From: Egicoccus sp. AB-alg2
GTDB taxonomy: Bacteria; Actinomycetota; Nitriliruptoria; Nitriliruptorales; Nitriliruptoraceae
Assembly: GCF_041821065.1 (NCBI RefSeq)
Contig: NZ_JBGUAX010000014.1
Location: 1 to 59,253 of the forward strand
Reading direction: 5' to 3'
Length of the DNA: 59,253 nt
Below the pieces are notes generated by a model. That model searched no databases, was not told the origin of the DNA, and saw only the letters and a list, made by a program, of their open reading frames with translations. Position numbers and translations under genes: made by a program. Below, one piece after another: positions 6,206-38,427 of the stretch. Within the stretch, counting starts at the first letter, position 1; every line of letters starts with the position of its first letter.

Positions 6206-7672
6206 TCAGCCCGTGGCCAGCAGGCTGGTCAGCGACGAGTAGTCGGTGACCAGGCCCGGCAGCACCCCGAGCACGACGGTGCCGACCATCAGCACCAGCA
6301 CCACCAGCGAGAGCTGGAAGCCGGGCTGGAGCGCGGGCAGCCCCTCGCGGGCCGGGTCCATCCACATGCCCTTGACGATGCGCAGGTAATAGAAGAACGC
6401 GATGACCGAGTTGATCGCGAGGAACACCATCAGCACGATGCCGAACACGGTGACCTCGACGAGCGCCGCCTCGATGATGGCGAACTTCGCCCACAGGCCC
6501 ACCGTCGGCGGCGCGCCACCGAGGCTCAGCAGGAACACGGTCATCGCCATCGCCATGAGCGGGCTCTTCTGCGCCAGACCGGCGTAGTCGGCCAGGGAGC
6601 GCAGGCCGGTGCGACGGTTGACGGCGATGGCGACCCCGAACGCACCGATGTTCATGACGGCGTAGGCAACGAGGTAGAACACGATGGCCGACACCGCGGC
6701 GTCGTTGACCTCGGGGGCCCCGGAACGGGCGAGCCCGAACGGGATCAGCATGTAGCCGGCCTGCGCGACCGACGAGTAGGCCAGCAGACGGATGAGGTCG
6801 CGCTGCTGCAGGGCGACGAGGTTGCCGATCGTCATCGTCAGGATGGCGAGCACCCCGAGCACCGGCGCCCACACGTCGGCGACCGGCTCGAAGGCGATGA
6901 ACGCCACGGCCATCAGACCCGCGAACCCGGCGGCCTTGGACGCGACCGCCAGCATGGCCGCGACCGGCATCGGCGAGCCCGCGTAGGTGTCGGGCGCCCA
7001 GAAGTGGAACGGCACCGCGGAGATCTTGAACGCGAATCCGACGATCACCAGCATGACCGACGCCAGCAGCAGCGGCGTGAGCTCGGCGTCGCCGCCCATC
7101 GCGGCCGCGATGTCGGGCAGGTAGGTGGACCCGGCGAAGCCGTAGACCATCGACATGCCGAAGAGCATGAGCGCGACCGACAGCACGCCGATGAGGAAGA
7201 ACTTCAGTGCCGCCTCGGAGGAGTACAGGTCGCGCTTGCGCAGCCCGGCCATCACGAACGCCGGAACGGACACGGTCTCCAGCGCGATGAACAGCAGCAG
7301 CAGGTCGCGCGAGGACGGCATCAGCAGCATGCCGATGAACGACGTGAGCAGCAGGAAGTAGTACTCGCCCTGGAAGTAGCGGCCCTCGGCGAAGAACCGC
7401 CAGCTGATGCCGAGGATGGCGAGCAGGCTGCCGAGGAACAGCAGCTTGAAGACCACGGCGAACTCGTTGACGACGAACATGCCGCCGAAGGTCTCGCGCT
7501 GCTCGCCCCACAGCGCGATCGTGAAGCCGATCGCGACCAGCGTGCCGAGCCCCGCGACGGGGTTGACCAGCTGCTTGGCCTCACCACGCAGGGCGAGGTC
7601 GGCTGCCAGCACGATCAGCGCCGTGACCGTCAGCGCGATCTCCGGTGCGATCGCGAAGAAGTCGATGGCCAT
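6206..7672 (-). CDS. nuoN: NADH-quinone oxidoreductase subunit N, first operon
   Basis: A 488-residue, 14-helix antiporter-like proton channel of the complex I membrane arm. The NuoN/M/L core is recognisable, including PFHFWAPDTYAGSP and LLAYSSVAQAGYML. It is the last gene of the NuoEFG-less operon, 64 nt after nuoM. A second, quite divergent NuoN (547 aa) is encoded at 24983-26626, so the two operons are old paralogues rather than a recent duplication. The 250-bp region after its stop has several GC-rich inverted repeats but no clear terminator. Confidence 0.93.
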   Translation of the reverse strand: MAIDFFAIAPEIALTVTALIVLAADLALRGEAKQLVNPVAGLGTLVAIGFTIALWGEQRETFGGMFVVNEFAVVFKLLFLGSLLAILGISWRFFAEGRYFQGEYYFLLLTSFIGMLLMPSSRDLLLLFIALETVSVPAFVMAGLRKRDLYSSEAALKFFLIGVLSVALMLFGMSMVYGFAGSTYLPDIAAAMGGDAELTPLLLASVMLVIVGFAFKISAVPFHFWAPDTYAGSPMPVAAMLAVASKAAGFAGLMAVAFIAFEPVADVWAPVLGVLAILTMTIGNLVALQQRDLIRLLAYSSVAQAGYMLIPFGLARSGAPEVNDAAVSAIVFYLVAYAVMNIGAFGVAIAVNRRTGLRSLADYAGLAQKSPLMAMAMTVFLLSLGGAPPTVGLWAKFAIIEAALVEVTVFGIVLMVFLAINSVIAFFYYLRIVKGMWMDPAREGLPALQPGFQLSLVVLVLMVGTVVLGVLPGLVTDYSSLTSLLATG

Positions 7673-7736
7673 GGTCAGGTTTCCCGTCTCGAAGGTCGTC
7701 GTGGCCGGGGGGCCGGCCGCCGGTCGATGCGTCGCG

Positions 7737-9272
7737 TCAGCCCAGCACCCAGCCCATCAGGTTGCTGACGGCCGCGTCCTGCACGCCGAACACCAGGCGC
7801 GGGTACACGCCCAGGGCGAGGATGAGGATCAGCAGCGGGAGCCAGGACACCCACTCCACGCGCATGACGTCCTGCAGCGGCTCGTCGGCCCAGCGGGCCA
7901 TCGGCCGGCCGAGGTTCACGCGCTGCAGCAGCCACAGGAAGTAGCCGGCGGTGAGCACGGTCCCGATCGCCGCGAAGATGACCAGCACGAGGTAGAGGCC
8001 CTGGTAGGTGTCGGCGAGGCCGCCGCCCGGGCTGATCGCGGCCCACATCGCGGTGAACTCGCCCCAGAACCCGGCCAGGCCCGGCAGGCCCAGCGACGCC
8101 ACCGCGACGTAGGTGAAGAGCACGCCGTAGCGCGGGATCTTGGTGAACATCCCGCCGCCGATCTCGGCGATCTCGCGAGTGTGGTAGCGCTCGTGCAGCG
8201 AGCCGGCGAGGAAGAACAGCATGCCGGTGACGATGCCGTGGGCGATGTTGCCGAACAGCGCCGCCTGGATGCCGGACTCGTTCATGGCGGCGATGCCGAG
8301 CATGACGAAGCCCATGTGGCCGACGGACGAGAACGCGATCAGGCGCTTCACGTCGGTCTGGGCCAGGCAGCACAGCGACCCGTAGATGATGCCGATGACG
8401 GCGAGCACCCCGATGATGGGGGCGAAGCGCATCGCCCCGTCGGGCAGGATCGGCAGGGCGATCCGGATGAAGCCGTAGGTGCCCATCTTCAGCAGGACGC
8501 CGGCCAGCAGGACCGAGCCGACCGTCGGCGCCTCCGTGTGCGCGTCGGGCAGCCAGGTGTGGAACGGCCACATCGGGACCTTGATGGCGAAGCCGAGGAA
8601 GATCCCGAGGAACGCCCAGGTCTGGAACGTCAGGCCACCGACCCCGCCGGCCGCCGACAGCGCCTGGATGTCCCAGGTGGTCGCGCCGTTCTGGAAGTAG
8701 ATCGCCAGGAAGGCGACCAGCATGAAGATCGACCCGAACAGCGTGTAGAGGAAGAACTTGACGCTGGCGTAGTCACGGCGCGCGCCACCCCACATCCCGA
8801 TCATGAAGAACATCGGGACCAGGACCAGTTCCCAGAAGATGAAGAACAGGATCAGGTCGAAGGCGACGAAGGTGCCGGCCATGCCCGTCTGCAACAGCAG
8901 CATCAGGGCGAGGAAGGCCTTCGGCTTGCCGGGCGCGGGCAGGATCTTCGTGGTGTAGATCGCGCACAGCAGCGGCAGCAGGTAGGTCAGGAAGAACAGC
9001 GGCAGGCTGATGCCGTCCAGCGCGATGTGGAAGTTGGCGTTGATCGCCGAGATCCACGACACGTCGGTCTGGAACTGCAGCTCCCCGGTCGAGCCGAAGT
9101 CGAACGCGGCCGTCATCGCGACGACCACCGCGAACGCGACGCCGGTGATGCCCACCGCCGCCCAGCGGATCTCGCGGTCCAGCCGGGCGGGCATCAGCGC
9201 CAGCAGTCCCGCCCCGACGAGGGGCAGGAACAGGGCGACGATCAGTGCCCAACCTGCGGTCTGCGGGTCCAT
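7737..9272 (-). CDS. nuoM: NADH-quinone oxidoreductase subunit M, first operon
   Basis: A 511-residue, 14-helix antiporter-like subunit. Typical stretches include MWPFHTWLPDAHTEAPTVGS and LIAFSSVGHMGFVMLG, with the membrane lysine/histidine pattern of proton-pumping NuoM. A good ribosome site (GGAGGG) precedes the ATG at 9272. It lies 109 nt downstream of nuoL, and that gap contains a perfect hairpin (9290-9308) on the mRNA. Confidence 0.93.
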   Translation of the reverse strand: MDPQTAGWALIVALFLPLVGAGLLALMPARLDREIRWAAVGITGVAFAVVVAMTAAFDFGSTGELQFQTDVSWISAINANFHIALDGISLPLFFLTYLLPLLCAIYTTKILPAPGKPKAFLALMLLLQTGMAGTFVAFDLILFFIFWELVLVPMFFMIGMWGGARRDYASVKFFLYTLFGSIFMLVAFLAIYFQNGATTWDIQALSAAGGVGGLTFQTWAFLGIFLGFAIKVPMWPFHTWLPDAHTEAPTVGSVLLAGVLLKMGTYGFIRIALPILPDGAMRFAPIIGVLAVIGIIYGSLCCLAQTDVKRLIAFSSVGHMGFVMLGIAAMNESGIQAALFGNIAHGIVTGMLFFLAGSLHERYHTREIAEIGGGMFTKIPRYGVLFTYVAVASLGLPGLAGFWGEFTAMWAAISPGGGLADTYQGLYLVLVIFAAIGTVLTAGYFLWLLQRVNLGRPMARWADEPLQDVMRVEWVSWLPLLILILALGVYPRLVFGVQDAAVSNLMGWVLG

Positions 9273-9289
9273 CGTGTCGTTCCCTCCTG

Positions 9290-9308
9290 CTCGCCCTGTG
9301 AGGGCGAG
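9290..9308. other. Intercistronic hairpin between nuoL and nuoM (first operon)
   Basis: CTCGCCCT at 9290-9297, a 3-nt loop, and the exact complement AGGGCGAG at 9301-9308. It lies just upstream of the nuoM ribosome site in an otherwise tightly packed operon. An RNA processing or stability element is plausible; a terminator is unlikely because nuoM and nuoN follow and no T-run is present. Confidence 0.45.
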
Positions 9309-9381
9309 AGCGGCCCCGTCTGGTTCGCGGCGCCGTCACCGATTCTTTGCGTTGTCGTGGCCGCGTGCGGCCGAGGAGTTG

Positions 9382-11814
9382 CTACCTGGCCGCCGCGAAC
9401 GCGAGCACCAGCACGATCGTTCCGGCGACGATGGCGCCGGCGTAACGCTGCACGTCACCGGACTGCAGGCGCTTCAGACGGTCGCTCCACCAGGCGGCGC
9501 TGAACGCCGCCCCGTTGACGCCACCGTCGATCACCTTCTGATCGAGCACCTGGTAGGTCGACTCGGCCGCCCGCTTGGTGAGCGTCCCGGCGCCGGCCAC
9601 CCAGCCGTCGATGCGGTTGTTGCTGAAGTCCGTCGCCCACGTGGCGAGCTTGTCGCGCACCGGCACCACGACGTAGCGGTAGCCGAACGTGTCGAAGCCG
9701 TACTTGGCGACGAGCACCTTCGACAGCGCCCCCATCTTGAAGGTCGGGTCCTCGGCGGGCAGCCCGCGGCCGTAGAGGCGGTACGCGAGCGCGACCGCCG
9801 CGAGGAACGCCACGAGGGCCAGCGCGAGCACGTCGAAGTGCCAGCTCGGCGGGCCGTGGAGGATCTCCGGGTGCGCGCCCTCCTCGGCAGCCGCGAGCAC
9901 GGACGGGCCTGCCGCCAGCACGCCACCGCCCTGCAGCCCGGCCGCCTCGGCGCCGTGGTCCTCCTCGCCCTCGCCGTAGCCGCCGCCCTCGACGAACGGG
10001 TAGGTGGCCTCCTCGAGGATCGGCGTGGCCGTCCACGTCTCGAAGTTGTTCTCGGCCGTCCACAGCGGCGAGCCGATCAGGCCCACGGTCAGCGACAGCA
10101 CCGCGAGGATCACCAGCGGCACCACCATCTGCAGGCCCGACTCGTGCGGCTCGTGGTGGCCGCCGTGGCCGTGGCCGTGGCCGCCACCGTGGCCGTCGTC
10201 GTGGCCGACCGCGTGCGAGCCGCCGGCGACACCGTGGGCACCCGCGTTGGCGGCGGCGTCGTGCGAGCCGCCCCCGCCCGCGGCCGGGGCGTGGCCGCCG
10301 GCCGCCACGTGGACGGTCTCCTGCTCGTGCGCCTGTACCTCGGCGGCGTCCTCGGCGACACCGTGGCCGACGAGCTCCGGGTCGACGCCGGCGGCCTGGG
10401 CGGCCTGGTGCTTCACGTCCGGGTCGCCGTGGGTGTCGTGGCCGCCGCGGAAGTCACCCGTGAAGATGAGGAAGCAGGCGCGGGCCATGTAGAAGGTCGT
10501 GACGAACGCCGCCGCCAGGCCCACCCAGAACACCAGGTCACCGGTGACGAACCCGTTGCCCGACCAGATCTGGCCGGACACGAGGATCTCGTCCTTGGAG
10601 AAGAACCCGGCGGTCATGGGGAAGCCGGCCAGCGCGAGCGAGCCGACGATGAACGTCCAGTACGTGTGCGGCATGTACTTCCGCATGCCGCCCATGTCGG
10701 ACATGTTGTTGCTGTGCACGGCGTGGATCAGCGACCCGGAGCCGAGGAACAGCAGCGCCTTGAAGAACCCGTGCGTGAACAGGTGGAAGATGCCGGCCGT
10801 GTACCCGCCGACGCCCAGCGCGGCGATCATGTAGCCCAGCTGCGAGACGGTGGAGTAGGCCAGCACCTTCTTGATGTCGTCCTGGACAAGCGCGACGAGG
10901 CCACCGAAGAACAGCGTGATGATGCCGACGACGGCGACGATGGTCATCACGACCGCCGACTGGGCGAGCACCGGGTAGAGGCGGGCCAGCAGGAACACCC
11001 CGGCCGTCACCATCGTCGCGGCGTGGATCAGGGCGGACACGGGCGTGGGGCCGGCCATGGCGTCCGGGAGCCACACGTGCAGCGGCATCTGGCCGGACTT
11101 GGAGATGCAGGCGAGGAAGATCATCAGCATCCCCAGCACGACCGTGCCGGTGGCGAGCTCGCCGGCCGCCGCGGCCTCGTTGAGCTGCAGGATGTTGAAG
11201 ACCTGCCCGTTCTCCGCGAGCGCGAACATCGGCACGGACAGCACGATCACGCCCACGATCAGGCCGACGTCACCGAACTTCGTGACGAGGAAGGCCTTGT
11301 TCGCGGCGTCCTGGTTGGACTTCTCCTCCCAGTAGAAGCCGATCAGCAGGAACGAGCACAGTCCGACGAGCTCCCAACCGATCAGGGCCTGCAGCGTGTT
11401 GTTCGCGATCACCAGCACGAGCATGGAGAACGTGAACAGGCTGAGCATCGCGAAGAAGTAGGTGAACCGCGGCTCGTGGGCCATGTACTCCCGCGAGTAG
11501 ACGTGCACCAGCAGCGAGACGGTCGTGACCAGCACGAACATCATCGCGGTGAGGCCATCGACGAGCATCCCGAGCTCGAGCACGAAACCGCCGCCGAGTG
11601 GCGACCACCGGAAGGCGTGCTCGACCGGTTCGATGGTGCCGCTGGTGAAGGTGTGCCAGCCGATCAGCAGCGAGAGCACCAGCGCGATGCCGACGGCGGC
11701 GATGCCGAACTCGCTGCCGCGCAGTGGCATCAGCTTGCCGAAGGCGGCCGTGAGCACGGCCGACACCAGCGGCAGGACGACCACCAGCCACGCGTAGTCC
11801 AGGAGTGCTTCCAC
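9382..11814 (-). CDS. nuoL: NADH-quinone oxidoreductase subunit L with a long His-rich loop
   Basis: At 810 residues it is clearly longer than the usual 610-660; the paralogue at 28167-30125 has 652. The first 450 residues are a normal NuoL (MPLHVWLPDAMAGPTPVSAL, LAYSTVSQLGYM). An insertion of about 105 residues (455-565) then sits where the paralogue has a short GHDVHPHESP loop. It is rich in Ala, Gly and His, with GHGHGHGGHHEPHES at its end. A second Gly/Glu-rich insertion follows near residues 600-645. The C-terminus retains the lateral-helix region and final membrane segment. The GTG start is 12 nt after nuoK. The inserted loop may bind metal, which is inference. Confidence 0.93.
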   Translation of the reverse strand: MEALLDYAWLVVVLPLVSAVLTAAFGKLMPLRGSEFGIAAVGIALVLSLLIGWHTFTSGTIEPVEHAFRWSPLGGGFVLELGMLVDGLTAMMFVLVTTVSLLVHVYSREYMAHEPRFTYFFAMLSLFTFSMLVLVIANNTLQALIGWELVGLCSFLLIGFYWEEKSNQDAANKAFLVTKFGDVGLIVGVIVLSVPMFALAENGQVFNILQLNEAAAAGELATGTVVLGMLMIFLACISKSGQMPLHVWLPDAMAGPTPVSALIHAATMVTAGVFLLARLYPVLAQSAVVMTIVAVVGIITLFFGGLVALVQDDIKKVLAYSTVSQLGYMIAALGVGGYTAGIFHLFTHGFFKALLFLGSGSLIHAVHSNNMSDMGGMRKYMPHTYWTFIVGSLALAGFPMTAGFFSKDEILVSGQIWSGNGFVTGDLVFWVGLAAAFVTTFYMARACFLIFTGDFRGGHDTHGDPDVKHQAAQAAGVDPELVGHGVAEDAAEVQAHEQETVHVAAGGHAPAAGGGGSHDAAANAGAHGVAGGSHAVGHDDGHGGGHGHGHGGHHEPHESGLQMVVPLVILAVLSLTVGLIGSPLWTAENNFETWTATPILEEATYPFVEGGGYGEGEEDHGAEAAGLQGGGVLAAGPSVLAAAEEGAHPEILHGPPSWHFDVLALALVAFLAAVALAYRLYGRGLPAEDPTFKMGALSKVLVAKYGFDTFGYRYVVVPVRDKLATWATDFSNNRIDGWVAGAGTLTKRAAESTYQVLDQKVIDGGVNGAAFSAAWWSDRLKRLQSGDVQRYAGAIVAGTIVLVLAFAAAR

Positions 11815-11826
11815 GAGCTTCGCCCC

Positions 11827-12138
11827 CTACCAGCGCATCAGGTCGACGTCGTCGACGTTGACCGACGCACGGTTGCGGAACATGTTGAAGATGATGGCCA
11901 GACCGACGCCGACCTCGGCGGCGGCCACGGCGATGATGAACAGCGCGAACAGCTGGCCGCTGACGAACTCCTCGGCGGGCCAGAGCAGGTTCTGGAAGGC
12001 CACGAGGTTGATGTTCACGGCGTTGAGCATCAGCTCGACGCTCATCAGCACCAGGACGGCGTTGCGCCGGGCGATGATTCCGTAGACGCCGACACAGAAC
12101 AGCAGCGTGGCGAGCAGCAGCGGGCCGATCGGACTCAT
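11827..12138 (-). CDS. nuoK: NADH-quinone oxidoreductase subunit K, first operon
   Basis: A 103-residue, three-helix subunit of the membrane arm. It contains the expected buried glutamates in the helices around [19 protein letters not shown] and [20 protein letters not shown]. The ATG at 12138 overlaps the nuoJ stop (ATGA), indicating coupled translation. Confidence 0.93.
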
Positions 12139-12770
12139 CGCGACTCGCCTCCGGTCGGGCCACCGGCGCCCGCGTCGCCGGCGCCGAGCTCGGCCGGGGC
12201 GGTCCGGGCCCGGTCGTGCTCGGTCGAGGGCGCCTCGCCGAACTCGATGCGGGCCTGGTCGATGGTCTCGCCGGAGTCGCCGGCCTCGCGGCGTGCCAGC
12301 AGGATCGCGCCGATCAGTGCCGCCAGCAGCAGCATGGACAGCGCCTCGAACGGCAGCACCCAGCGCGCGAAGATCACGATCCCGATCGCCTCGGTCGCCA
12401 CCCGCTGCGGCACCACCGCGTCCGCCCCGCCGTAGGCCTGCACGATCAGGACCGCCAACGTGACGAACAGGCCACCGGCGACGGCCAGCCCCAGGCCACG
12501 GTTCTGGCTGTCCAGGGCCTCGCGGCCGATCGGGGCGCGCGTGAGCATCAGCCCGAACAGGAACAGCACCGTCACGGCGCCGACGTACACGATCAGCTGC
12601 ACCAGCGCCAGGAAGTCGGCGTGCAGGACCAGGAAGACCCCGGCGATACCGGCCAGGGTCACGGCCAGGTGCAGCGCGGCGTGGACGAGGTTCTTGGAGG
12701 TGACGGTGAGGATCGCCGCGCCGGCGGTCACCAGCCCCACCAGGAGGAAGACCGCGTCATACCCGGTCAC
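12135..12770 (-). CDS. nuoJ: NADH-quinone oxidoreductase subunit J, first operon
   Basis: A 211-residue protein with five transmembrane segments in the first 165 residues, including [20 protein letters not shown], the characteristic pi-bulge helix of NuoJ. An acidic Gly-rich hydrophilic tail follows. The GTG at 12770 overlaps the nuoI stop by 4 nt (GTGA). Confidence 0.92.
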
Positions 12771-14044
12771 GCATCACCTCCGGCATCGAGCTGCTCCTGC
12801 TTCTTCTTCTTGACCCAGGCGGCCTTGGCCTTCGCACGGGCGATCCGGTCGGACTTACCCTCGGCGATCAGCCGGTCGTAGGTCTCCTGGTCGATCTCGC
12901 CGGCGCCCTCGACGTGGATGTCGCCGAGCTTCTTCTGCGGTTCCGCGGCCGAGGCGGCCTCGGCCTCGGCGGGCTGCGGCGCGTCGGCCGCCGGCCCTGC
13001 CGCGCCGGCCGGTTCGGGGGTCGCGTCGGTGGTGTCCGCCGCCGGGGTCGCGACCTCGGAGGCGTCGCCGCCGGACGCGGCCTCGGCACGAAGCCGGGCC
13101 TTCTCCTTCTTCACCCACGCCGCCTTGGCCTTGGCCCGCGCCATGCGCTCGGGCTTGCCCTCGGCGATGAGCTGGTCGTAGGTCTCCTGGTCGATCTGGC
13201 CGGCCTCGACGTGCACCTCGGCGGGGGCCGGGGCGGGGGCGGCCGCCTCGGCAGGGGCGTCCGCGGGCGCGGCGGCGGCCTCCGAGGCGGCCTGCTCGCG
13301 CAGCTTGGCCTTCTGCTTCTTGACGTAGGCGGCCTTGGCCTTCGACCGGGCGATGCGCTCGGACTTGCCCTCGGCGATCAGCTGGTCGTAGGTCTCCTGG
13401 TCGATCTCGCCGGCCTCGACCTTGGGCTCGTCGGCCTTGGCCGCGGCAGCCGGGGCGGCGGCCGCCGCCTTGGCCTCGTCGGCCTGCTTCGCGGCCTGCT
13501 CGGCGGCCTGGGCGGCCTGCTCGAGCTCGCGCTCGGCCTTGGCGATGGCGTCCGAGACCTCGGCGGGGATCTCCGCACCGGCGTCCAGCGGGGGCGGTGG
13601 CGGCACCGTGTCCATCCACTCGCGCAGCTTGCCCTTCTCGTGGAGCAGCCCGCCCATCTGGTACTCGGCGTACTCGAACTCCGGCGACCAGAACAGCGCG
13701 TCGAACGGGCACACCTCGACGCAGATGCCGCAGTACATGCACAGCGCGAAGTCGATGGCGAAGCGGTCGAGCACGTTGCGGGTGCGCGCGCGGCCGCCCT
13801 CCTTGGCCGGCGGCACCGTCTCCTTGTGGGAGTCGATGTAGATGCACCAGTCGGGGCACTCACGGCTGCACAGCATGCAGACCGTGCAGTTCTCCTCCAT
13901 CAGCGCGATCACCCCACGGGTGCGCGGCGGCAGGTCCGGCCGGACGTGCGGGTACAGCTGCGTGGACGGCGTCTTGAACAGGTGCTTGAGCGTGACGCCC
14001 AGCCCCTTCAGCAGCCCGACGCCCGGCATCGAGGTCGTTGCCAT
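12767..14044 (-). CDS. nuoI: NADH-quinone oxidoreductase subunit I with triplicated C-terminal module
   Basis: A 425-residue protein. Residues 1-165 are an ordinary NuoI carrying two [4Fe-4S] clusters ([12 protein letters not shown] and [12 protein letters not shown]) that bring electrons to NuoB. The remaining 260 residues are not part of standard NuoI. An Ala/Glu/Lys coiled-coil-like stretch (about 175-210) is followed by three near-identical basic modules (about 212-248, 280-318 and 381-418). Ala/Pro-rich linkers separate the modules. The start is the ATG at 14044, sharing one base with the nuoH stop; a longer in-frame reading runs antisense through nuoH and was rejected. The extension may dock an electron donor replacing NuoEFG, which is inference. 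Confidence 0.93.
12791..13412 (-). repeat. Three copies of a 36-residue module inside nuoI
   Basis: Copies are encoded at about 13301-13412, 13095-13206 and 12791-12903. The shared pattern is IDQETYDxLIAEGKxxRxAR followed by AKAAxVKKxK. Copies differ at only a handful of positions (Gln/Arg, Ser/Pro, Tyr/Trp), so they arose by in-frame duplication and have stayed very similar. A predicted helix-turn-helix-like pair ending in a Lys-rich helix is likely. Confidence 0.85.
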
Positions 14045-15150
14045 CAGAACACCACCTTGGCGACGGTGACCACCGCGAGGTTGACCAGCGACAGCGGCAC
14101 CAGCACCAGCCAGGACATGCGCTGCAGCTGGTCCTCGCGCAGACGCGGGTAGGCGACGCGCAGCCAGACCATCACGAACGTCAGCAGCAGGATCTTGCCC
14201 AGCGTCACCCCGAGGCCGATCAGGGTGCCGAGCGCCCCACAGTCGAACAGTCCACCCGCGCCCTCGCAGCCGGGGAGCGGCACGCCCGGCAGGATCTGCC
14301 AGCCGCCGAGGTAGAGCACCACCATCAGCGCAGACATGGACACCATGCCGGCGTACTCGGTGAGCAGGTACATCGCGAACTTCATGCCCGTGTACTCGGT
14401 CATGTAGCCGAACACGAGCTCGGAGTCGGCGATCGGCATGTCGAACGGCGGGCGCGACAGCTCGGCCAGCGCGGCGACGAAGAAGATCCCGAAGCCGAGG
14501 ATCTGCGGGAAGACGAACCAGAGGTTGACGTTGGTCCCGGCGATCGTGAACGTGGCCTGCGACTCCACGATGCTGACCAGCGAGAGGCTGCCGGCCTGGA
14601 CCGCGACCGCGATCGCCGCGAGGATCAGCGGCAGCTCGTAGGCGATCAGCTGGGCGGCGGCACGTAGGCCACCGATCAGCGAGAACTTGTTGGCGCTCGC
14701 CCAGCCGCCCATCATCACGCCGAGGACGGAGATCGACGTGATGGCCAGGGCGTAGAAGAGGCCGAGCTCGAGGTCCTGCGCCCACAGGCCCGGCGCCAGC
14801 GGCAGCACGAAGAAGATCAGCATGGCCGGCACGAGGGCCATGCCCGGCGCGATCGCGAACACCCACCGGTCGGCGGCGCGCGGGATCACGTCCTCCTTCT
14901 GGAGGAACTTGATGCCGTCGGCGACCAACTGCAACGACCCGGCCGGACCGGCGAACATCGGCCCGCGGCGGTGCTGCAGGCGGGCCATCGCCTTGTGTTC
15001 CATGTAGCCCACGACCAGCGGGACCACGAAGAACAGGCCGAGCACCAGCGCGACCTTCAGCGCCACCGACAGCAGGAAGGTGTCGGTGTCGAGCAGGCCG
15101 GCGGTCTGCGCGAGCAGCCCGGCAGACACGGTGGTGAGGGTTTCGCTCAT
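14044..15150 (-). CDS. nuoH: NADH-quinone oxidoreductase subunit H, first operon
   Basis: A 368-residue membrane subunit with about eight to nine helices that forms the quinone-chamber entrance with NuoB and NuoD. Recognisable blocks include [20 protein letters not shown], the acidic loop region [20 protein letters not shown] and [15 protein letters not shown]. The ATG at 15150 overlaps the stop of the upstream mini-ORF by 4 nt. In the second operon nuoH instead follows nuoG. Confidence 0.94.
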
Positions 15151-15233
15151 CGGTCGACATCTCCCGCGACCGCGCGCTCGCTCGCTCGGAGACCGGTCGT
15201 GGTGGCGTTGGTGTGGGCGATCCGCTCGCTCAT
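15147..15233 (-). CDS. Coupled 28-codon mini-ORF, distal copy
   Basis: ATG AGC GAG CGG ... TGA gives a 28-residue peptide starting [20 protein letters not shown] and ending in VDR. Its ATG overlaps the stop of the proximal copy, and its own stop overlaps the nuoH ATG, both as ATGA. It is one unit of an 83-bp tandem duplication. Its end resembles the nuoD end (GDVDR) and its start resembles the nuoH start (MSE), so it may be a rearranged nuoD/nuoH junction. Whether the peptide is functional or only keeps ribosomes moving into nuoH is unknown. Confidence 0.45.
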
Positions 15234-15316
15234 CGGTCGGCTTCTCCCGCGACCGCGCTCTCGCTCGCTCGGAGACCGGTCGTGGTGGCGTTGGTGTGGG
15301 CGGTCCGCTCGCTCAT
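15151..15316. repeat. 83-bp tandem duplication between nuoD and nuoH
   Basis: Two units of 83 bp (15151-15233 and 15234-15316) are nearly identical. The boundary sequence GCTCATCGGTCG recurs a third time at the nuoH start region. The unit contains CGCTCGCTCGGAGACCGG. A 29-codon ORF (87 nt) on an 83-nt period gives exactly the 4-nt ATGA overlap at each junction. Confidence 0.9.
15230..15316 (-). CDS. Coupled 28-codon mini-ORF, proximal copy
   Basis: A 28-residue peptide beginning [20 protein letters not shown] and ending in EADR. Its ATG overlaps the nuoD stop (ATGA) and its TGA overlaps the ATG of the distal copy. It differs from that copy at four codons, all of which change the residue (Thr/Ile, Ser/Arg, Glu/Asp, Ala/Val). 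That pattern argues against strong selection on the peptide itself, while both frames and overlaps are kept intact. Confidence 0.45.
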   Translation of the reverse strand: MSERTAHTNATTTGLRASESAVAGEADR

Positions 15317-16500
15317 CGGTCGACGTCCCCGACGACGAAGAAGACGGAGCCGAGCACGCTGATGGCGTCGGGCACCAGCGTCCCCTCCAGCAGGTAGGGC
15401 AGCACCTGCACGTTGGAGAACGACGCGGTGCGCATCTTCAACCGCCACGGCGTGCGACCACCGTCGGACTCGAGCCAGTAGCCGAGCGAGCCCAGCGGGT
15501 TCTCCACCCGCACGTAGGTCGCGCCCTCGGGGGCCTTGACCATCTTGGGCAGCTTCACGTTCACCGGCCCGGCCGGGATCATGTCGTGGCACTGCTCGAT
15601 GATGTGGCAGGAGGCCTTCATCCGCGCCAGCAGGCAGTAGAAGCGGTCGAAGCTGTCGCCGTTCTCCCCGACCGGGACCGGTACCTCGACCTGGTCGTAC
15701 TTGAGGTAGGGCTCGGAGACGCGCACGTCCTCGGGGATGCCGGTCGCCTGCAGGGTCGGGCCGGACACCCCGTACGACAGCGCCACGTCGGTCGACAGCG
15801 GCCCGACACCCTTGGTGCGGGCCTGGAAGATCTCGTTGCCGAGCAGCAGGTCGTCGAAGTCCTGCAGCCGCTTCTTCACGTCGGCGACCAGCTCGACCGA
15901 CTGGTGCAGGAAGCCCTTGGGCAGGTCGATCTTCACCCCGCCCGGCTGGTTGTAGGTGTAGTGCAGCCGGCCGCCCGACGCGGCCTCCAGCAGGTACTGG
16001 ATCCGCTCGCGCTCGCGGGTGGCGTAGAACATCGGCGTGATCGCGCCGAGCTCGAGCCCGTACGAACCGATGAACAGCAGGTGGTTGAGGATCCGGTTCC
16101 ACTCCGCGCAGATCATCCGGATCCACTGGGCCCGTTCCGGGACCTCCATCTCCAGCATCCGCTCGACCGTGAGGGCGAGCCCGATCTCGTTGGTCATGCC
16201 CGACAGCCAGTCGTGGCGGTTGACCAGGGCGAGGTTCTGGCGGAAGTCACGGTGCTCGGCCAGCTTCTCGAAGCCGCGGTGCATGTAGCCGATCACCGGG
16301 TAGGCGGTCTTGACCCGCTCACCGTCCATCTCCAGCACCACGCGCAGCACGCCGTGCGTGGCCGGGTGCGCGGGGCCGACCGACAGCGTCATGTCCGCCG
16401 TCGTGAACGCCCCGTCGCCGACGATCTCGAGATTGAGGCTCTCCCCCGGGGCCGACGCCGGATGGATGGTCTCGCGGGCACTCAGGTCGCTGACGCTCAT
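15313..16500 (-). CDS. nuoD: NADH-quinone oxidoreductase subunit D, first operon
   Basis: A 395-residue 49-kDa-type subunit forming the quinone site with NuoB. HPATHGVLR with the quinone-site His is present. The position normally occupied by the quinone-headgroup Tyr (MDY in most NuoD, and in the paralogue here) reads HDW in NRHDWLSGM. The C-terminus ends LGSVFFVVGDVDR. As I recall, the second (EFG-less) NuoD of Streptomyces has the same NRHDW and VVGDID features, so this is probably that family. The ATG at 16500 overlaps the nuoC stop (ATGA). Confidence 0.94.
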   Translation of the reverse strand: MSVSDLSARETIHPASAPGESLNLEIVGDGAFTTADMTLSVGPAHPATHGVLRVVLEMDGERVKTAYPVIGYMHRGFEKLAEHRDFRQNLALVNRHDWLSGMTNEIGLALTVERMLEMEVPERAQWIRMICAEWNRILNHLLFIGSYGLELGAITPMFYATRERERIQYLLEAASGGRLHYTYNQPGGVKIDLPKGFLHQSVELVADVKKRLQDFDDLLLGNEIFQARTKGVGPLSTDVALSYGVSGPTLQATGIPEDVRVSEPYLKYDQVEVPVPVGENGDSFDRFYCLLARMKASCHIIEQCHDMIPAGPVNVKLPKMVKAPEGATYVRVENPLGSLGYWLESDGGRTPWRLKMRTASFSNVQVLPYLLEGTLVPDAISVLGSVFFVVGDVDR

Positions 16501-17828
16501 GCGCGCTCCTCCCCGTCCGCCTCGTCGTCACCCGACGCATCGTCGCCCTCGCGCTGGTCGAAGTCGGCGCTCTGCCCCGGCGTGCCCTGGTAGGGGGCGT
16601 CCTCGTCGGCGCCCTCGGTGTCGTGCTCGCCGGGCACGGTCTGGTCGGGCGCCACGGGCGTGACCGGGCTGCGGGCCTGGGTGTCCGGGGCCTCGGACGT
16701 CTCGCCGGCGTCGGCCGGGTCTCCCTCGCGGCCGGCCGGCTCACCGGGGACGGCCTCGTCGCCCGGCGCGGACGGCTCGTCGGTGCCCCGTGCGCCGGGG
16801 ACCGGCCCGTCGGTGCCCTCGGCATCCGAGTCGTTGCCCCAGGAGGCGTCGCCCTCGGGCCGCGCCTCGGAGGTCGCGGCCTCGGGGAACTCGTCCTCGC
16901 CCGGCGCGACCGCCCCACCGGCGGCCTCGGCCACCTCGGCGTCGGCCTCCCCGGCGTCCGCGGCGGCGGCACGCTCGGCGGCCTTGCGGGCACGGGCCTC
17001 GGCGGCCGCCTTGCGCTTGGACTCGGCGCGCACGCGGGCCTCGGACTTGACGTCCTCGTGCTGCTCCTGGGCGTGCTCGGCATCCCCCGCCATCACCGCG
17101 CCGCTGTCGGGCGCGAGCTCGGCGTCGGTGCCGAGCGCCTCCTCGATCTCCTCGCCCTCGCGGGTGGCGGGGTCGGCGACGGGCTGCGGGTTGGCGAGCT
17201 TGGCCTGCTCGGCCATCGCCTTGTCGAGCTCGTACGGGCCGGGGGCGTCACCGAGCTGCGGCTCGCGCTCGATGACGTTGCCCTCCTCGTCGAGCTCGGC
17301 CGGCTCCTTGACCCCGGGCCACGGCTTGACGACCCGCGAGGCGAGCGGGAAGTCCTTGCGCAGCGGCCAGCCCTCGAAGGTCTCGATCGTGAAGATCCGC
17401 GGCTCGAGGCTCGGGTGGTCCGGGAACTCGATCCCGAACATGTCCCAGCACTCGCGCTCGTGCCAGTTGGCGCCGCGGTAGACGTCCGTCAAGGACGGGC
17501 AGGTCGGTGCCTCGCGCCCGCCCGGGCAGCGGGTACGCAGCGCGACGCGGTTGCCCGTGGACGTCGAGTACAGGATCGCGATGACGTCGAAGCCCTCGTC
17601 GCGGGCGTCGACGCCGAACAGGCAATCGAAGAAGTCGTAGGCCAGGACCCGCTCGTCGCGGCAGATCCGTGCGACGTCGGCGAAGTGCTCGTTGGCGACG
17701 TGCAGCGTGAACGTGCCGTACTCCACGGTCGTGCCCACGACCGCGGCGTCACCGGCCTTGGCCCGGACGAGCTCGGCCGTCTCCTCTGGCGTGAGCGCCT
17801 GATCCCTGCGCGCGAGAACTTCCGACAC
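16497..17828 (-). CDS. nuoC: NADH-quinone oxidoreductase subunit C with long disordered tail
   Basis: A 443-residue protein against a usual length of about 180-230. Residues 1-190 are the 30-kDa/NuoC domain, with NWHERECWDMFGIEFPDHP and GWPLRKDFPL. After residue 200 comes a low-complexity tail: an acidic segment, an Ala/Arg/Lys-rich helical stretch (about 262-295), then about 150 residues rich in Asp, Glu, Gly, Pro and Ser. The GTG start lies 7 nt after nuoB and the stop overlaps nuoD. The tail is absent from the paralogue at 39783-40475. Confidence 0.92.
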   Translation of the reverse strand: MSEVLARRDQALTPEETAELVRAKAGDAAVVGTTVEYGTFTLHVANEHFADVARICRDERVLAYDFFDCLFGVDARDEGFDVIAILYSTSTGNRVALRTRCPGGREAPTCPSLTDVYRGANWHERECWDMFGIEFPDHPSLEPRIFTIETFEGWPLRKDFPLASRVVKPWPGVKEPAELDEEGNVIEREPQLGDAPGPYELDKAMAEQAKLANPQPVADPATREGEEIEEALGTDAELAPDSGAVMAGDAEHAQEQHEDVKSEARVRAESKRKAAAEARARKAAERAAAADAGEADAEVAEAAGGAVAPGEDEFPEAATSEARPEGDASWGNDSDAEGTDGPVPGARGTDEPSAPGDEAVPGEPAGREGDPADAGETSEAPDTQARSPVTPVAPDQTVPGEHDTEGADEDAPYQGTPGQSADFDQREGDDASGDDEADGEERA

Positions 17829-17835
17829 GGTGTTC

Positions 17836-18387
17836 CTAGCCCTCCGCGGTCTGGAGCTCGGGCGCGATGTCCGGGCCGTCGTGGCGCACCACGATCGGGT
17901 CCCGACGACGCTGGGCCATGCGGTCCTTCAGGCTCTCGCCCTGGATGCGGTTCTGCAGCGCCACGATGCCGTCGAGCAGCGCCTCCGGGCGCGGCGGGCA
18001 ACCGGGGACGTACACGTCGACCGGCAGGATCTGGTCAACGCCCTTGGTCACCGAGTAGCTGTCCCAGTACGGGCCGCCGCAGTTCGAGCAGCTCCCGAAC
18101 GAGATGACGTACTTCGGCTCGGGCATCTCCTCGTAGAGACGTCGCAGCGCCGGGGCCATCTTGTCCGTCAGCGTGCCGGAGACCACGAGCAGGTCGGCCT
18201 GACGGGGCGCGTGCGCGAACGGGATCACACCGAGACGGATGAAGTCGTGCCGTGACCCGGAGGCCGCGATGAACTCGATGGCGCAGCAGGCGAGGCCGAA
18301 GTTGAAGCACCACAGCGAGTACTTGCGGCCCCAGTTGAAGACGTACTTGACGGGCTTCGGAAGCTCGACCTGGTCGACTACTCCCAC
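17836..18387 (-). CDS. nuoB: NADH-quinone oxidoreductase subunit B, first operon
   Basis: A 183-residue PSST-type subunit holding cluster N2, the last iron-sulfur cluster before quinone. The ligands are the tandem cysteines in GLACCAIEF, a Cys in FGSCSNCGG and the Cys in VPGCPPRPE. The GTG at 18387 overlaps nuoA by 10 nt. The C-terminal 25 residues are Arg/Asp-rich and vary from the paralogue. Confidence 0.95.
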
Positions 18388-18761
18388 TTGAGCACCCCCT
18401 TCTTCCAGGCGTACATCAGGCCCTCGAGGAGCGTGGCGATGAACAGGAACATCGCGACGAGGGCGTACAACGCCGAGGGGGTCGTGGTCCCGTCGAGGTC
18501 ACCGATGACCACGGCCCACGGGAACAGGAAGATCGCCTCGACGTCGAAGATGACGAACAGAAACGCGAACACGTAGTAGCGGATGTTCATCTGGGACCAC
18601 CCGGTCCCGACCGCCTCGACTCCACACTCGTAGGTGGTGAGCTTGAGCGGGCTGGGCACGGCGGGGCGCATCAGCCGGTTGCCCAGCATGATGATCGCGT
18701 ACAGGACGCACCCGACGATCACGAGGATCGCGAAGGCCCCGTACTGCTCGGTGAAGCTCAC
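18378..18761 (-). CDS. nuoA: NADH-quinone oxidoreductase subunit A, first operon
   Basis: A 127-residue, three-helix subunit and the first gene of the EFG-less operon. [11 protein letters not shown] gives the conserved loop Cys and [15 protein letters not shown] is the typical NuoA helix. The GTG at 18761 is preceded by a strong AGAGGAGG ribosome site. A longer upstream reading has no homology. Confidence 0.95.
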
Positions 18762-18956
18762 CCCGGTCCTCCTCTGAGGGTATCCCCGGCGTACCGGCCG
18801 ACGTTCCGCCACATGATGGTTCGGTTCCGCTTCCTCGTCACACCCCAGGCCCTGTCGTGCAGGCCCGTCGCGCGAAGGCAGCGACTCCCTGGCGCGCGCG
18901 TACTGCCCCTGGCGACCCGGATCGTGCGTGGGCCGCTCGGGGTGGAACGCGCGCCG

Positions 18957-23906: not shown

Positions 23907-24986
23907 TCAGCCCACCCGGTCGAGCGAGTACTCGGCCAGGCGGGTGAGCGCGGTCACGACCGGCCGTTCGCCGAACATCCTGAGCTCGTCGACCGCCGCG
24001 GTCACGTAGCGCGCGGCGTGCTCGCGCGAGCGGGCGAGGCTGTCGCCGGCCCGCAGCAGCTCCAGCGCACGCTCGACGTCGGCGTCGTCCAGCTCACCGT
24101 CGAGCAGCGCGGCCAGCTCGCCGTCGGGGTCCTGCGCCAACGCGTGCAGCACCGGCAGGGTGCGCACGCCCTCCTTGAGGTCCGTGCCCGGCGTCTTGCC
24201 CGACTCCTCGCTCTCGGAGGCGACGTCGAGGATGTCGTCGGACAGCTGGAAGGCCATACCGACGTTCCAGCCGTAGCGGGCCGCCGCCTCGACCTGCGCC
24301 TCGGATGCACCCGACAGCAGCGCCCCGTACCGGCAGGAGGTCTCGATCAGCGACGCCGTCTTGCCGGAGATCACCTCGAGGTAGTGCTCGAGGGTCGGCT
24401 CGAGCTGGGGCACGTCGGGCATCGCCCCGAGCGACCCCTGGACCTCGCGGATCTGGCCCTCGCACAGGCGTGCCAAGGTGCGGGCCATGATGCGGGTCAC
24501 GTCGACGCCGAGGTCGGCCGACAGGTCCGAGGCGCGCGCGAACAGGTAGTCGCCCGTGAGGATCGCGACGGTGTTGTCCCAGCGCGAGTTGGCCGACGGC
24601 GTCCCGCGCCGGGCAGGCGCCTCGTCGATGACGTCGTCGTGGTACAGCGTCGCGAGGTGCACCAGCTCGACGATCACGCCGGCGTCGACCAGCGAGCGCA
24701 GCGTGCCGTTGGCGCTCGGGCGTGTGACCGGCGTGTTGGGGCCGAGGTAGCCGGTCAGCGCGACCATCAGCGGACGGAACCGCTTGCCGCCGGCGCTGAT
24801 GAGGTAGCGGGCGACCTCGTCCACGAACGCGTTGTTGGACGACACCTGGTCGTGCAGGCGCTGCTCGACACCGTCGAGGACCTGCGCGACCGGCAGTCCG
24901 TGGGCCTCGAGCTCGTCGAGGACCGGGGCAGGGATCGACAGCCGCGCGGCGCGCGGCGGCTGTCCGGAGCGGGCCTCGGTCGTCAC
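23907..24986 (-). CDS. Polyprenyl diphosphate synthase (menaquinone side chain)
   Basis: A 359-residue trans-prenyltransferase. It has the first Asp-rich motif DDVIDEA (about residue 116), the second DDILD (about 249), GGKRFRP for substrate phosphate binding and GKTASLIETS. It extends isopentenyl units to a long all-trans chain; as the last gene of the nuo cluster it very likely makes the menaquinone tail (GrcC/HepT-like). The GTG at 24986 overlaps the nuoN stop (GTGA), so its translation is tied to complex I. Confidence 0.9.
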   Translation of the reverse strand: MTTEARSGQPPRAARLSIPAPVLDELEAHGLPVAQVLDGVEQRLHDQVSSNNAFVDEVARYLISAGGKRFRPLMVALTGYLGPNTPVTRPSANGTLRSLVDAGVIVELVHLATLYHDDVIDEAPARRGTPSANSRWDNTVAILTGDYLFARASDLSADLGVDVTRIMARTLARLCEGQIREVQGSLGAMPDVPQLEPTLEHYLEVISGKTASLIETSCRYGALLSGASEAQVEAAARYGWNVGMAFQLSDDILDVASESEESGKTPGTDLKEGVRTLPVLHALAQDPDGELAALLDGELDDADVERALELLRAGDSLARSREHAARYVTAAVDELRMFGERPVVTALTRLAEYSLDRVG

Positions 24987-26626
24987 CGCACCACGGCCGC
25001 GGCGTTCTCGGCCAGCTGCAGCAGCAGCTGGGGCTGGATGCCGAGGAACAGCACGAGCGTCGCGGCGACCGACACGCCGGCCGACAGCCCGGTGGTCACG
25101 ATCGGCAGCCCGCGGCCCTCCTCGACGTCCTCGAGGAACATCATGCCGGCCAGGCGCAGGTAGAAGAACGCCGCGATCACGCTGCTGATCACGCCGACCA
25201 CGACCAGCCAGGCGTGCCCGGAGGCCACGCCGGCCTCGAAGACGACCAGCTTGCCGACGAAGCCGGCGGTGGCGGGCACGCCGGCCAGCGACAGCAGGCA
25301 CAGGGTGAAGATGCCGGCCAGCATCGGGGAGCTCTTGCCGAGCCCGCGCAGGTCGACCAGCGTCACCTCGCCGCGACGGACGCGCTCGATGGCCAGCACG
25401 CAGCCGAAGGCACCCAGCGTCGCGACCGCGTAGGTCAGCAGGTACCACAGCGTGGCCGACAGCCCGGCGTCGGAGTTGGCGACCACGCCGATGGTGGCGT
25501 AGCCGGCGTGCGTGATGGACGAGTAGGCCAGCATGCGCTTGACGTCGCGCTGGACGATGGCGACCCAGGCGCCGTAGAGCATGGACAGCGCGGCCAGCAC
25601 CGACAGCACCGGCACCCACAGCTGCTCGAGCGCCGGGAAGGCGACGAGGTACAGCCGCAGGAGCGCCGCGAAGCCGGCGGCCTTCACCGCGGCGGCCATG
25701 AACGCGGTCACGTTGGTCGGGGCGCCCTGGTAGACGTCGGGCGTCCAGAGGTGGAACGGCGCGAGCGCGACCTTGAAGCCGACCCCGACGGTGACCAGCG
25801 CGAGGCCGAGGACGCCGACCACCGACGGCGTGGTGACCAGGCCGAGGCCGGCACCGATCTCCGCCAGGTTCACCGATCCGGTCGCGACGTAGAGCAGCGC
25901 CATGCCGTAGAGCAGGATCGCCGAGGCGACCGAGCCCAGGATGAAGTACTTCAGCGACGACTCCTGCGAGCGCCGGTCGCGCCGCGCCAGGCCGGTCAGC
26001 ACGTACAGGGCCATCGACAGGACCTCGAGGCTGACGAACAGCGTGATGAGGTCGTTGGCGGTGCCGAGGAAGGCCATGCCGGCGACGCACAGCAGCATCA
26101 GCGGCTCGACCTCGGCGCGGCCGATCTGGCGGTCGCGCAGGTAGCCGTAGCCGATCGGGATCACCAGCAGCGCGGACAGATAGACCGTGATGCGGGTGAA
26201 GAAGCCGATGCCGTCGTTGGCCAGCGCCCCCTGCAGGGCCTCCTGGGGTGCGATCAGGCCGCCCTGCGGCGCGAGGACCTCGGCGTACTGCCAGAAGGTG
26301 AGCACCAGGGCGCCCAGCAGCGCCAGCGCCGAGCCCCAGGCCTGCGTCAGCGACGGGCGGAGCGGGAAGGCGAGCACGAGCGCGGGCAGGGCGGCGCCGA
26401 GCGCGATGGTCACGGCACCGGGCAGGACGAAGCCCTGCGTGACCAGCCACACGCCAGCGGCGGCGGTGGGGACGGCGGCGAGGACGGCGACCAGCAGGCG
26501 TTGCGAACCGGCGACGGCCAGCAGCAGGAGGACCAGCGCGGCGCAGCTGACGGCCAGCTCCGGCGCGAAGCTGGACCAGGCGACCTGCGGCCCGTCGATG
26601 GCGGCTTGGGCGAGGAACACGGGCAC
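24983..26626 (-). CDS. nuoN: NADH-quinone oxidoreductase subunit N, second operon
   Basis: A 547-residue, 14-helix antiporter-like subunit. Signature blocks are PFHLWTPDVYQGAPT and MLAYSSITHAGYATIG. The N-terminus (from the GTG at 26626) has two extra hydrophobic helices relative to the first-operon copy. It is separated from nuoM by 4 nt and overlaps the polyprenyl synthase gene. Confidence 0.94.
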   Translation of the reverse strand: MPVFLAQAAIDGPQVAWSSFAPELAVSCAALVLLLLAVAGSQRLLVAVLAAVPTAAAGVWLVTQGFVLPGAVTIALGAALPALVLAFPLRPSLTQAWGSALALLGALVLTFWQYAEVLAPQGGLIAPQEALQGALANDGIGFFTRITVYLSALLVIPIGYGYLRDRQIGRAEVEPLMLLCVAGMAFLGTANDLITLFVSLEVLSMALYVLTGLARRDRRSQESSLKYFILGSVASAILLYGMALLYVATGSVNLAEIGAGLGLVTTPSVVGVLGLALVTVGVGFKVALAPFHLWTPDVYQGAPTNVTAFMAAAVKAAGFAALLRLYLVAFPALEQLWVPVLSVLAALSMLYGAWVAIVQRDVKRMLAYSSITHAGYATIGVVANSDAGLSATLWYLLTYAVATLGAFGCVLAIERVRRGEVTLVDLRGLGKSSPMLAGIFTLCLLSLAGVPATAGFVGKLVVFEAGVASGHAWLVVVGVISSVIAAFFYLRLAGMMFLEDVEEGRGLPIVTTGLSAGVSVAATLVLFLGIQPQLLLQLAENAAAVVR

Positions 26627-26630
26627 GCTC

Positions 26631-28163: not shown

Positions 28164-28166
28164 CGC

Positions 28167-30125
28167 CTACCTCACCGAGTACACGAGGAACCCGACCAGG
28201 ACCAGCGTCCCCAGCACGAAGCTGGCGACGTAGCCGCGGACGAGTCCCGTCTGGGCGCGGCGCGTGACCCGCCCGAGGGCGAGCGACGCGGTGCCGGAGC
28301 CGTTGACGACACCGTCGACGATGCGCGTGTCCACCCACACCATGGCGTCGGCGAGCCGGCCACCGATGCGCACGAACACGAGCGAGTAGATCTCGTCGAC
28401 GTAGAACTTGCGCTCGAGCACCTCGGCGGCCAGGCCGCGGATCGGCTCGAGCATGCGGCCGCGGGACAGGTCACCGCGGACGTAGACCAGGAAGGCGAGC
28501 CCGATGCCGATCGCGCCGGCGACGACCGCCGCGCCGATCAGACCCAGCTCCGGGATCGGGCCGGCCGCCTCGTAGCCCAGCCCACCGGTGTCCCCGACGA
28601 CCGGGGAGAGGAAGCGGTACAGCGGACCGACGTGGACGGGGTTCAGCAGCGAGCCCGCGACGGTCAGCACGGCCAGCACGATCAGCGGCATCGTCATCGA
28701 CGCCGGCGACTCGTGCGGGTGGACGTCGTGGCCGAAGCGGGGCTTGCCGAGGAAGATCAGGAAGAACCACCGCGACATGTAGAACGCGGTCAGCACGGCG
28801 CCGAGCAGGCCCAGCAGCCAGATCCCGAAGTAGCCGTGCATGTAGGCCTCGGTCAGGATCTGGTCCTTGGAGAAGAAGCCCGACAGCGGCGGGACGCCCG
28901 CGATCGCCGCCGTGGCCACCGCGGAGGTCACGAAGGTGATGGGCATCGCCTTGCGCAGCCCGCCCATGCCCCAGACGTCGGTGCGGTTGGCCATGGCGTG
29001 CATGACCGAGCCGGCGGCGAGGAACAGCAGCCCCTTGAAGAAGGCGTGTGTGACGAGGTGGAAGATGCCCTCGGCGAACGCGCCGACGCCGACCCCGACG
29101 AACATGTAGCCCAGCTGCGAGACGGTCGAGTAGGCCAGGATCTTCTTGATGTCGTCCTGCCGCAGGGCGATGAGCGCACCGAGCAGGACGGTCGCCACGC
29201 CGATGTAGGCGATGACCTCCATGCCGGTCAGCGACTGCACCAGCACCGGCGACAGCCGCACCGTCAGGTAGACGCCGGCGGTGACCATGGTGGCCGCGTG
29301 GATCAGCGCCGACACCGGGGTCGGGCCAGCCATCGCGTCCGGGAGCCACACGTACAGCGGGATCTGCGCCGACTTCGCGGCCGCACCACCCAGGAACAGC
29401 AGCACCAGTGCCAGGGCCGTGCCGCTGGCCAGCGTCTCCGCGTTGTCGATGATGCCGAGGAAGTCGAGCGTGCCGAACACCGAGAAGGCGAGGAACATCC
29501 CGATCATGAACGAGACGTCGCCGACGCGGTTGGTGATGAACGCCTTCTTGGCGGCGGACGCGTACTCGGCCTTCTCGAACCAGAACCCGATCAGCAGGTA
29601 GCTGGACAGACCGACCAGCTCCCAACCGACGAACAGCGTCACCAGATTGGCGCCCAGCACCAGCACCAGCATGGAGAACAGGAACAGGTTGAGGTAGGCG
29701 AAGAACCGCTCGAACCGCGCGTCGCCGTGCATGTAGCCCAGCGAGTAGATGTGGATGAGCAGGCCGACCCCGGTCACCACCAGCAGCATCACCACGGTGA
29801 GCTGGTCGATGAAGAGGTCGTAGCCGACCTCGAAGGCTCCGGCCTGGATGAACGTGCCCAGCGGGCGGACGTAGGTCGCCGGATCGGCGAACACCTGCGC
29901 CGCCACGCCGACCGAGAGCAGGAAGCTGACGGCCGCGGCACCGATGGCCACGAAGGCGGCGCTCTCGCGCAGGACGCGGGTCAGCGCCAGCACGGCGACG
30001 AAACCGAGCAGCGGCACGACCGGGATCAGCCACGACAGCCCGATCAGGCCGGTCGTGGCCTCGACGACGTCGTTGGCGACGGCGCTGTGTTCCTCGGCTG
30101 CGAGCAGCAGCGTCACGTTCGACAC
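28167..30125 (-). CDS. nuoL: NADH-quinone oxidoreductase subunit L, second operon
   Basis: A 652-residue standard-length NuoL with IPLYVWLPDAMAGPTPVSAL and ILAYSTVSQLGYMFVG. The loop that is hugely expanded in the first-operon paralogue is short here (FGHDVHPHESPASM). The C-terminal transverse-helix region is normal. The GTG start at 30125 lies 1 nt after nuoK. Confidence 0.95.
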   Translation of the reverse strand: MSNVTLLLAAEEHSAVANDVVEATTGLIGLSWLIPVVPLLGFVAVLALTRVLRESAAFVAIGAAAVSFLLSVGVAAQVFADPATYVRPLGTFIQAGAFEVGYDLFIDQLTVVMLLVVTGVGLLIHIYSLGYMHGDARFERFFAYLNLFLFSMLVLVLGANLVTLFVGWELVGLSSYLLIGFWFEKAEYASAAKKAFITNRVGDVSFMIGMFLAFSVFGTLDFLGIIDNAETLASGTALALVLLFLGGAAAKSAQIPLYVWLPDAMAGPTPVSALIHAATMVTAGVYLTVRLSPVLVQSLTGMEVIAYIGVATVLLGALIALRQDDIKKILAYSTVSQLGYMFVGVGVGAFAEGIFHLVTHAFFKGLLFLAAGSVMHAMANRTDVWGMGGLRKAMPITFVTSAVATAAIAGVPPLSGFFSKDQILTEAYMHGYFGIWLLGLLGAVLTAFYMSRWFFLIFLGKPRFGHDVHPHESPASMTMPLIVLAVLTVAGSLLNPVHVGPLYRFLSPVVGDTGGLGYEAAGPIPELGLIGAAVVAGAIGIGLAFLVYVRGDLSRGRMLEPIRGLAAEVLERKFYVDEIYSLVFVRIGGRLADAMVWVDTRIVDGVVNGSGTASLALGRVTRRAQTGLVRGYVASFVLGTLVLVGFLVYSVR

Positions 30126-30126
30126 G

Positions 30127-30426: not shown

Positions 30427-30429
30427 GAC

Positions 30430-31263
<834 letters not shown>

Positions 31264-35821: not shown

Positions 35822-35826
35822 TCGCG

Positions 35827-37251: not shown

Positions 37252-37252
37252 G

Positions 37253-38380: not shown

Positions 38381-38427
38381 GGGTGCGTGCTCCTCGGGGT
38401 GAAGGCGGTGCGGTGGGTGGCGAGGCG

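Follow-up and report, generated by a model that had tools for sequence, protein, structure and literature searches.

Among the systems closest to the one described here is the NDH-1L complex of Thermosynechococcus elongatus, which, in the available sections of two papers, is described as having 11 subunits in common with bacterial complex I and as lacking Nqo1-3 (PMC6992706, PMC4131877). Its purification on Ni resin relied on a native stretch rich in His within the NdhF1 subunit (PMC6992706), and excerpts from two other reports likewise describe resin binding by this region, also termed a native polyhistidine tag (PMC4131877, PMC7021789). These three papers provide a precedent for in vitro Ni binding by an exposed His-rich region of a NuoL homologue. 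In our alignment, the NdhF1 loop before PHES (PDB 6hum_F, 6khj_F) was found to be His-rich, EHHDHHSHHAAVPHES, and we infer that it is the Ni-binding region of those excerpts. Other relevant precedents, also available in part, include a system with nuoABCDHIJKLMN but without nuoEFG, like the operon analysed here, described there without mention of a His-rich NuoL loop (PMC11238625), and the cytoplasmic protein CupA of cyanobacteria, for which the NuoL homologue NdhF3 is the docking site (PMC6981117). In a chloroplast NdhF (PDB 7eu3_F), the corresponding site, from TM13 to PHET, is enlarged by about 70 residues, with no His run at the edges of the insertion, the part that was read. Literature searches for NuoL together with histidine-rich returned no paper, and one on slippage and His-rich loops that required at least four of its five terms also returned none. 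His-rich cytosolic loops are also characteristic of the CDF and ZIP zinc transporters, where, as in the insert described below, low-complexity HGH/HDH repeats of variable length lie between TM helices; these proteins transport zinc, whereas NuoL is a proton pump without a known metal substrate.

The window, that is, the whole 59,253-nucleotide stretch of Egicoccus sp. AB-alg2 DNA that was analysed, contains an operon that reads from nuoA to nuoN on the minus strand and comprises 11 subunits, including a NuoL with a His-rich insert (Table 1). The A, C, I and J subunits of this operon had best NCBIfam matches below the curated cut-offs, while A and C passed those of Pfam. In a second minus-strand operon, of the 14-subunit type (approximately 24983-41310), NuoE, F, G, C and A were matched and the remaining subunits were assigned by position. 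The two operons are located about 6 kb apart, one without and one with NuoEFG, and the genes between them encode a uracil-DNA glycosylase, a betaine-aldehyde-dehydrogenase-like protein and a sodium/solute symporter. Elsewhere in the genome, one NuoF-type domain was detected besides that of the second operon, on contig C12. In genomes G003 and G089, the NuoF domain lies closer to the other NuoL than to the NuoL of the EFG-less type.

Table 1. Coordinates of the complex I features in the window.
Feature	Position	Strand	Details
nuoL, 11-subunit operon	9382..11814	-	810 aa, GTG start; above cut-off on NF005141 and TIGR01974; Foldseek NdhF/NuoL
His-rich insert	10153..10446	-	98 aa, 17 His, between TM13 and TM14
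EPHES motif before TM14	10138..10152	-	conserved
Genus-conserved 16-residue part of insert, GGHDTHGDPDV[KR]HQAA	10399..10446	-	3/3 genus members with complete loop
Short tandem repeat (6-, 12- and 24-base units) encoding the GH repeats within the insert	10152..10207	-	Tandem Repeats Finder
Operon nuoABCDHIJKLMN, without nuoE, F, G	6206..18800	-	NCBIfam and Pfam matches; nuoA start approximate
Second NuoL, NuoEFG operon	28167..30125	-	short 18-residue segment; control

The nuoL frame scored 594.4 bits on NF005141 (cut-off 556) and 588.3 on TIGR01974 (cut-off 407.5), which identifies the protein as a NuoL and not as a metal transporter of the CDF or ZIP type. The insert follows the end of TM13 (LIFTGDFRG) and reads GGHDTHG...GGHH, after which the EPHES motif begins. 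P556 and E558 were invariant across 20 aligned NuoL rows, and H557 and S559 nearly so. As in NdhF1, the His-rich stretch thus lies between TM13 and PHES; the NdhF1 loop, from a cyanobacterial host, is far shorter (about 30 residues). Profile scores and the family alignment bear out the sequence-only reading, which had identified the gene as nuoL and described a HPHES-type loop expanded with His-rich sequence; the string it had singled out, GHGHGHGGHHEPHES, is present in the insert. Its estimate of about 105 residues was slightly high, since the insert has 98 residues and the window NuoL is 95 residues longer at this site than most family relatives, whose segment has 16. His accounts for 17/98 residues of the insert compared with 228/14322 (1.6%) in the other window genes taken as real. 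However, with 18 His per 100 residues the insert is only slightly above spurious frames of this GC-rich DNA, in which as many as 16-17 were counted, so the His count alone is no proof of the insert. Its frame was accepted because NuoL homology continues on both sides and two congeners have a similar loop, which excludes chance or a wrong frame. A Pfam search with the loop alone gave no match up to an E value of 5.

An AlphaFold model of the window NuoL, built from 20 sequences (mean pLDDT 64.5), reproduced the NuoL fold and helix pattern, with the TM13-14 loop, TM15, a long helix HL and TM16. In the model, TM13 spans residues 423-452, TM14 residues 561-579 and TM15 residues 660-681 (pLDDT about 65), while HL (705-738) and a helix at 788-809 both have pLDDT below 50. 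The best Foldseek match had an E value of 1.4e-27, and the top matches were NdhF, NuoL and ND5 chains. Within the insert, two stretches (459-469 and 482-553) had pLDDT values below 50, and the ten-residue mean ranged from 29 to 59, mostly 29-45. Judging from these values, the insert is probably disordered; the low confidence may partly reflect a shallow alignment, since the C-terminal part of the protein (696-810) is likewise below 50. According to the available part of a paper on Mrp, HL connects TMH15 with TMH16 and lies on the cytoplasmic side (PMC7419157), from which the 13-14 loop should be cytoplasmic as well. By homology, the insert should therefore face the cytoplasm, outside the membrane and on the distal subunit, a location that does not imply direct participation in pumping. 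The following TM14-15 loop (9840-9990, minus strand) is also long and variable, rich in Ala, Gly and Glu with few His, and has low pLDDT at residues 609-658.

Loop length was compared as the LxF...PHES segment in 35 family genomes, of which 23 had a readable complete loop in their copy of this NuoL; the 12 nearest named loci are 75-80% identical to the window over the best segment. The segment comprises 16 residues in 14 of the 23 members and is expanded in the other 9. The three members of the window's genus have segments of 111, 105 and 139 residues with 18, 18 and 16 His, a fourth being excluded as its loop is cut by a contig end. The remaining expanded members belong to g12 (53, 35 and 42 residues), g2 (35) and g3 (64 and 78). 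Segments of 16-25 residues were read in one member of another family in the order and in class members. The insert opens with GGHDTHGDPDV[KR]HQAA, almost unchanged among the three congeners, but its interior is hardly alignable. The sequence-only reading had made its metal-binding proposal depend on a loop that does not vary greatly in both length and His content among close strains. Length does vary (105-139 residues in the genus, 16 in most other members), whereas the His number is steady at 16-18 in the three congeners. In one g12 member (G029, locus L017, 5170-8175), part of the loop reads ARTRTTRTT, with AHAHDAHDA in another frame. This apparent compensated frameshift was left unused as evidence, because the NuoI tail on that contig also looks frame-shifted and an assembly error may explain both.

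A tree of 30 rows, computed from the NuoL core columns with the loop omitted, requires at least four changes for the long form. A single insertion within the family, with the nine expanded rows as one clade, was rejected (AU p 0.001), although this test is weakened because the group was defined with the tree already in view. A narrower grouping that joins g1 and g12 was not rejected (p 0.137), and the number of gains is therefore uncertain; repeated loss is a possible alternative to repeated gain. At the DNA level, direct repeats 12 bases apart are present in the window insert. Clear short tandem repeats were found in four of the eight expanded loops examined, namely in the window, L029, L087 and L134. 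The L029 repeat (15 bases) lies in a part of the loop without His repeats, that of L087 is also 15 bases long with inner copies 91% alike, and that of L134 has 9 bases. Repeats were weaker in the L028, L137 and L144 loops, and in the L129 loop none was found. These patterns fit repeat slippage as a source of growth in part of the cases.

Outside the class, 80 NuoL ends were taken from the matches listed in a search of 396 genomes, a sample that follows listing order and is thus not random but biased to NuoL like the window's. Among these listed matches, 13 of the 80 ends were expanded, of which nine belong to family f27, three to f11 and one to f62, and three more f27 members, fetched on purpose, were expanded as well. 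Examples include GGHAHGGHAHGG and AHDAHDAHD. The type A NuoL (the window's type) of G161 and G196 stands outside these counts, and loci L164, L170 and L173 had no readable NuoL. In 25 expanded type A loops pooled, His makes up 256/1190 residues (range 8-39%), followed by Ala (21%), Asp (14.5%) and Gly (14%); Cys is absent, and Lys plus Arg account for 0-12%. The His range across these loops hints at selection for His.

The second NuoL paralogue (type B) is lengthened at the same site in 10 of 19 copies, and its longest segments are His-poor (56 residues with 4 His in G010 and 58 with 5 in G089). In eight type B loops, His amounts to 30/222 residues compared with the 256/1190 of type A (Fisher p 0.006), and to 36/250 (p 0.012) when G266 and G372 are added to cover all ten lengthened copies. 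The residues in these comparisons are not independent, the paralogue is a weak control, and the type B segments of G141, G222, G266 and G372 were extended by hand to PHES where the alignment was split. Among the eight genomes in which both paralogues are expanded, the His share is higher in type A for G089, G141, G266 and G372, lower in G005, G017 and G392, and about equal in G222. Part of the His in both types derives from a short ancestral motif. The 14-15 loop, on the opposite side, is also expanded, with His at 23/354 residues in six proteins. Retention was compared in ten close pairs, not all independent, with both sequences counted and under an alignment score that disregards residue type. 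His was matched by His at 184 of 208 aligned positions, compared with 112/148 for Asp, 174/228 for Ala and 142/176 for Gly.

We consider it somewhat more probable than not that the window insert is a tolerated, repeat-driven surface loop on the cytoplasmic side, with weak metal affinity and no dedicated function. The position, length, composition, variability, recurrence and low model confidence of the insert were observed here; its disorder, its cytoplasmic side (from homology), its origin by slippage, its metal affinity and the lack of a dedicated role are inferred. The starting point would have been a short loop that already held several His, in the tolerant stretch that separates TM13 from the conserved PHES ahead of TM14, and growth would have proceeded by duplication of short GC-rich repeats. 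Changes in length may be tolerated there because the loop would lie outside the membrane and the pump. The His/Asp clusters very probably can bind divalent metal weakly, by analogy with NdhF1 on Ni resin, and to this extent the metal binding that the sequence-only reading had proposed is plausible. This tolerated-loop explanation is supported by the lengths within one family (16, 35-53, 35, 64-78 and 105-139 residues), by the minimum of four changes on the tree, by the 13 expansions in the 80 ends among the matches listed elsewhere and by the lengthening of type B. Evidence against it includes the retention of His while length changes and the persistence of the 16-residue anchor in the genus, and the weak repeats of L028, L137 and L144 and their absence from the L129 loop speak against growth by repeats. 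What is new is how long the insert is, how often it recurs and that it sits in an EFG-less enzyme; the kind of feature is already known.

A selected role in metal or proton binding keeps some probability, mainly because His is retained while length changes. A metal-binding element selected to buffer or sense Zn, Ni, Co or Cu where the enzyme faces the cytoplasm, for example by keeping inhibitory Zn off the proton entry in the manner proposed for CDF/ZIP loops, appears unlikely, though it has several points in its favour. The clusters HGHGHGGHH and HDAHDDH occur in a loop without Cys and with few Lys or Arg, His is the best kept of the common residues in close pairs, His-rich expansion is found in several families, and native NdhF1 binds Ni resin in the excerpts cited above. 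However, such binding is expected of any exposed His run, the analysis showed no metal site, and 14 of the 23 family members do without the expansion. Moreover, relatives with a short loop already have many His in it, so that its repetition would yield His without selection. It is similarly doubtful that the TM13-14 loop of EFG-less NuoL has been shaped by recurrent convergent selection into a His/Asp-rich arm binding metal or protons; under this broader proposal, equally doubtful, the arm would have several origins in Actinomycetota and a separate one in cyanobacteria and would make the pump metal- or pH-sensitive. Quite improbable is an antenna of His, Asp and Glu that collects or buffers protons at the cytoplasmic mouth of NuoL and aids proton uptake in an alkaliphile, whose interior has few free protons. 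The loop is acidic and His-rich and by homology lies on the proton-uptake side, and many named family relatives belong to the CSSed MAG series, which we take to be from soda-lake sediment. Yet all eight CSSed relatives that were read (L010-L015, L019 and L020) have the 16-residue form, and expansions also occur in other families. The gene belongs to an EFG-less operon, whose enzyme must take electrons from another donor, and with the conserved anchor segment in the genus and the docking of CupA on NdhF3 described in the excerpt cited above, an arm that docks or tethers a partner of the enzyme or a distal module could be envisaged. We regard such an arm as highly improbable: the interior of the loop is hardly alignable even between congeners, and electrons enter complex I at the end of the membrane arm opposite the distal subunit.

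With the tolerated-loop explanation preferred, one loop of complex I emerges as a probable hotspot of repeat-driven, His-rich growth, which can mislead annotation. The loop may also serve as a built-in tag for purifying unusual 11-subunit complexes. Selection for the His residues, if real, would give a respiratory pump a metal- or pH-responsive element. The family provides a natural test set, in which the same enzyme carries loop segments of 16 to 139 residues.

Other subunits of the 11-subunit operon were also found to be extended. NuoI (12767-14044, minus strand) has a tail of about 300 residues beyond its last Cys motif, in which a motif occurs in three copies, as it does in eight family loci; among class members, L022 has two copies and L025 one. 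A Pfam search on this tail gave a doubtful GpA_nuclease match only. In NuoC (16497-17828, minus strand; 443 aa), the Complex1_30kDa domain stops at residue 165, and the tail after it has no Pfam match of note. An 83-base tandem repeat of 2.3 copies (15143-15336) falls for the most part between the nuoH and nuoD genes, and a 30-base tandem repeat of 3.2 copies (45495-45591) lies at the end of a predicted plus-strand gene (44958-45602).
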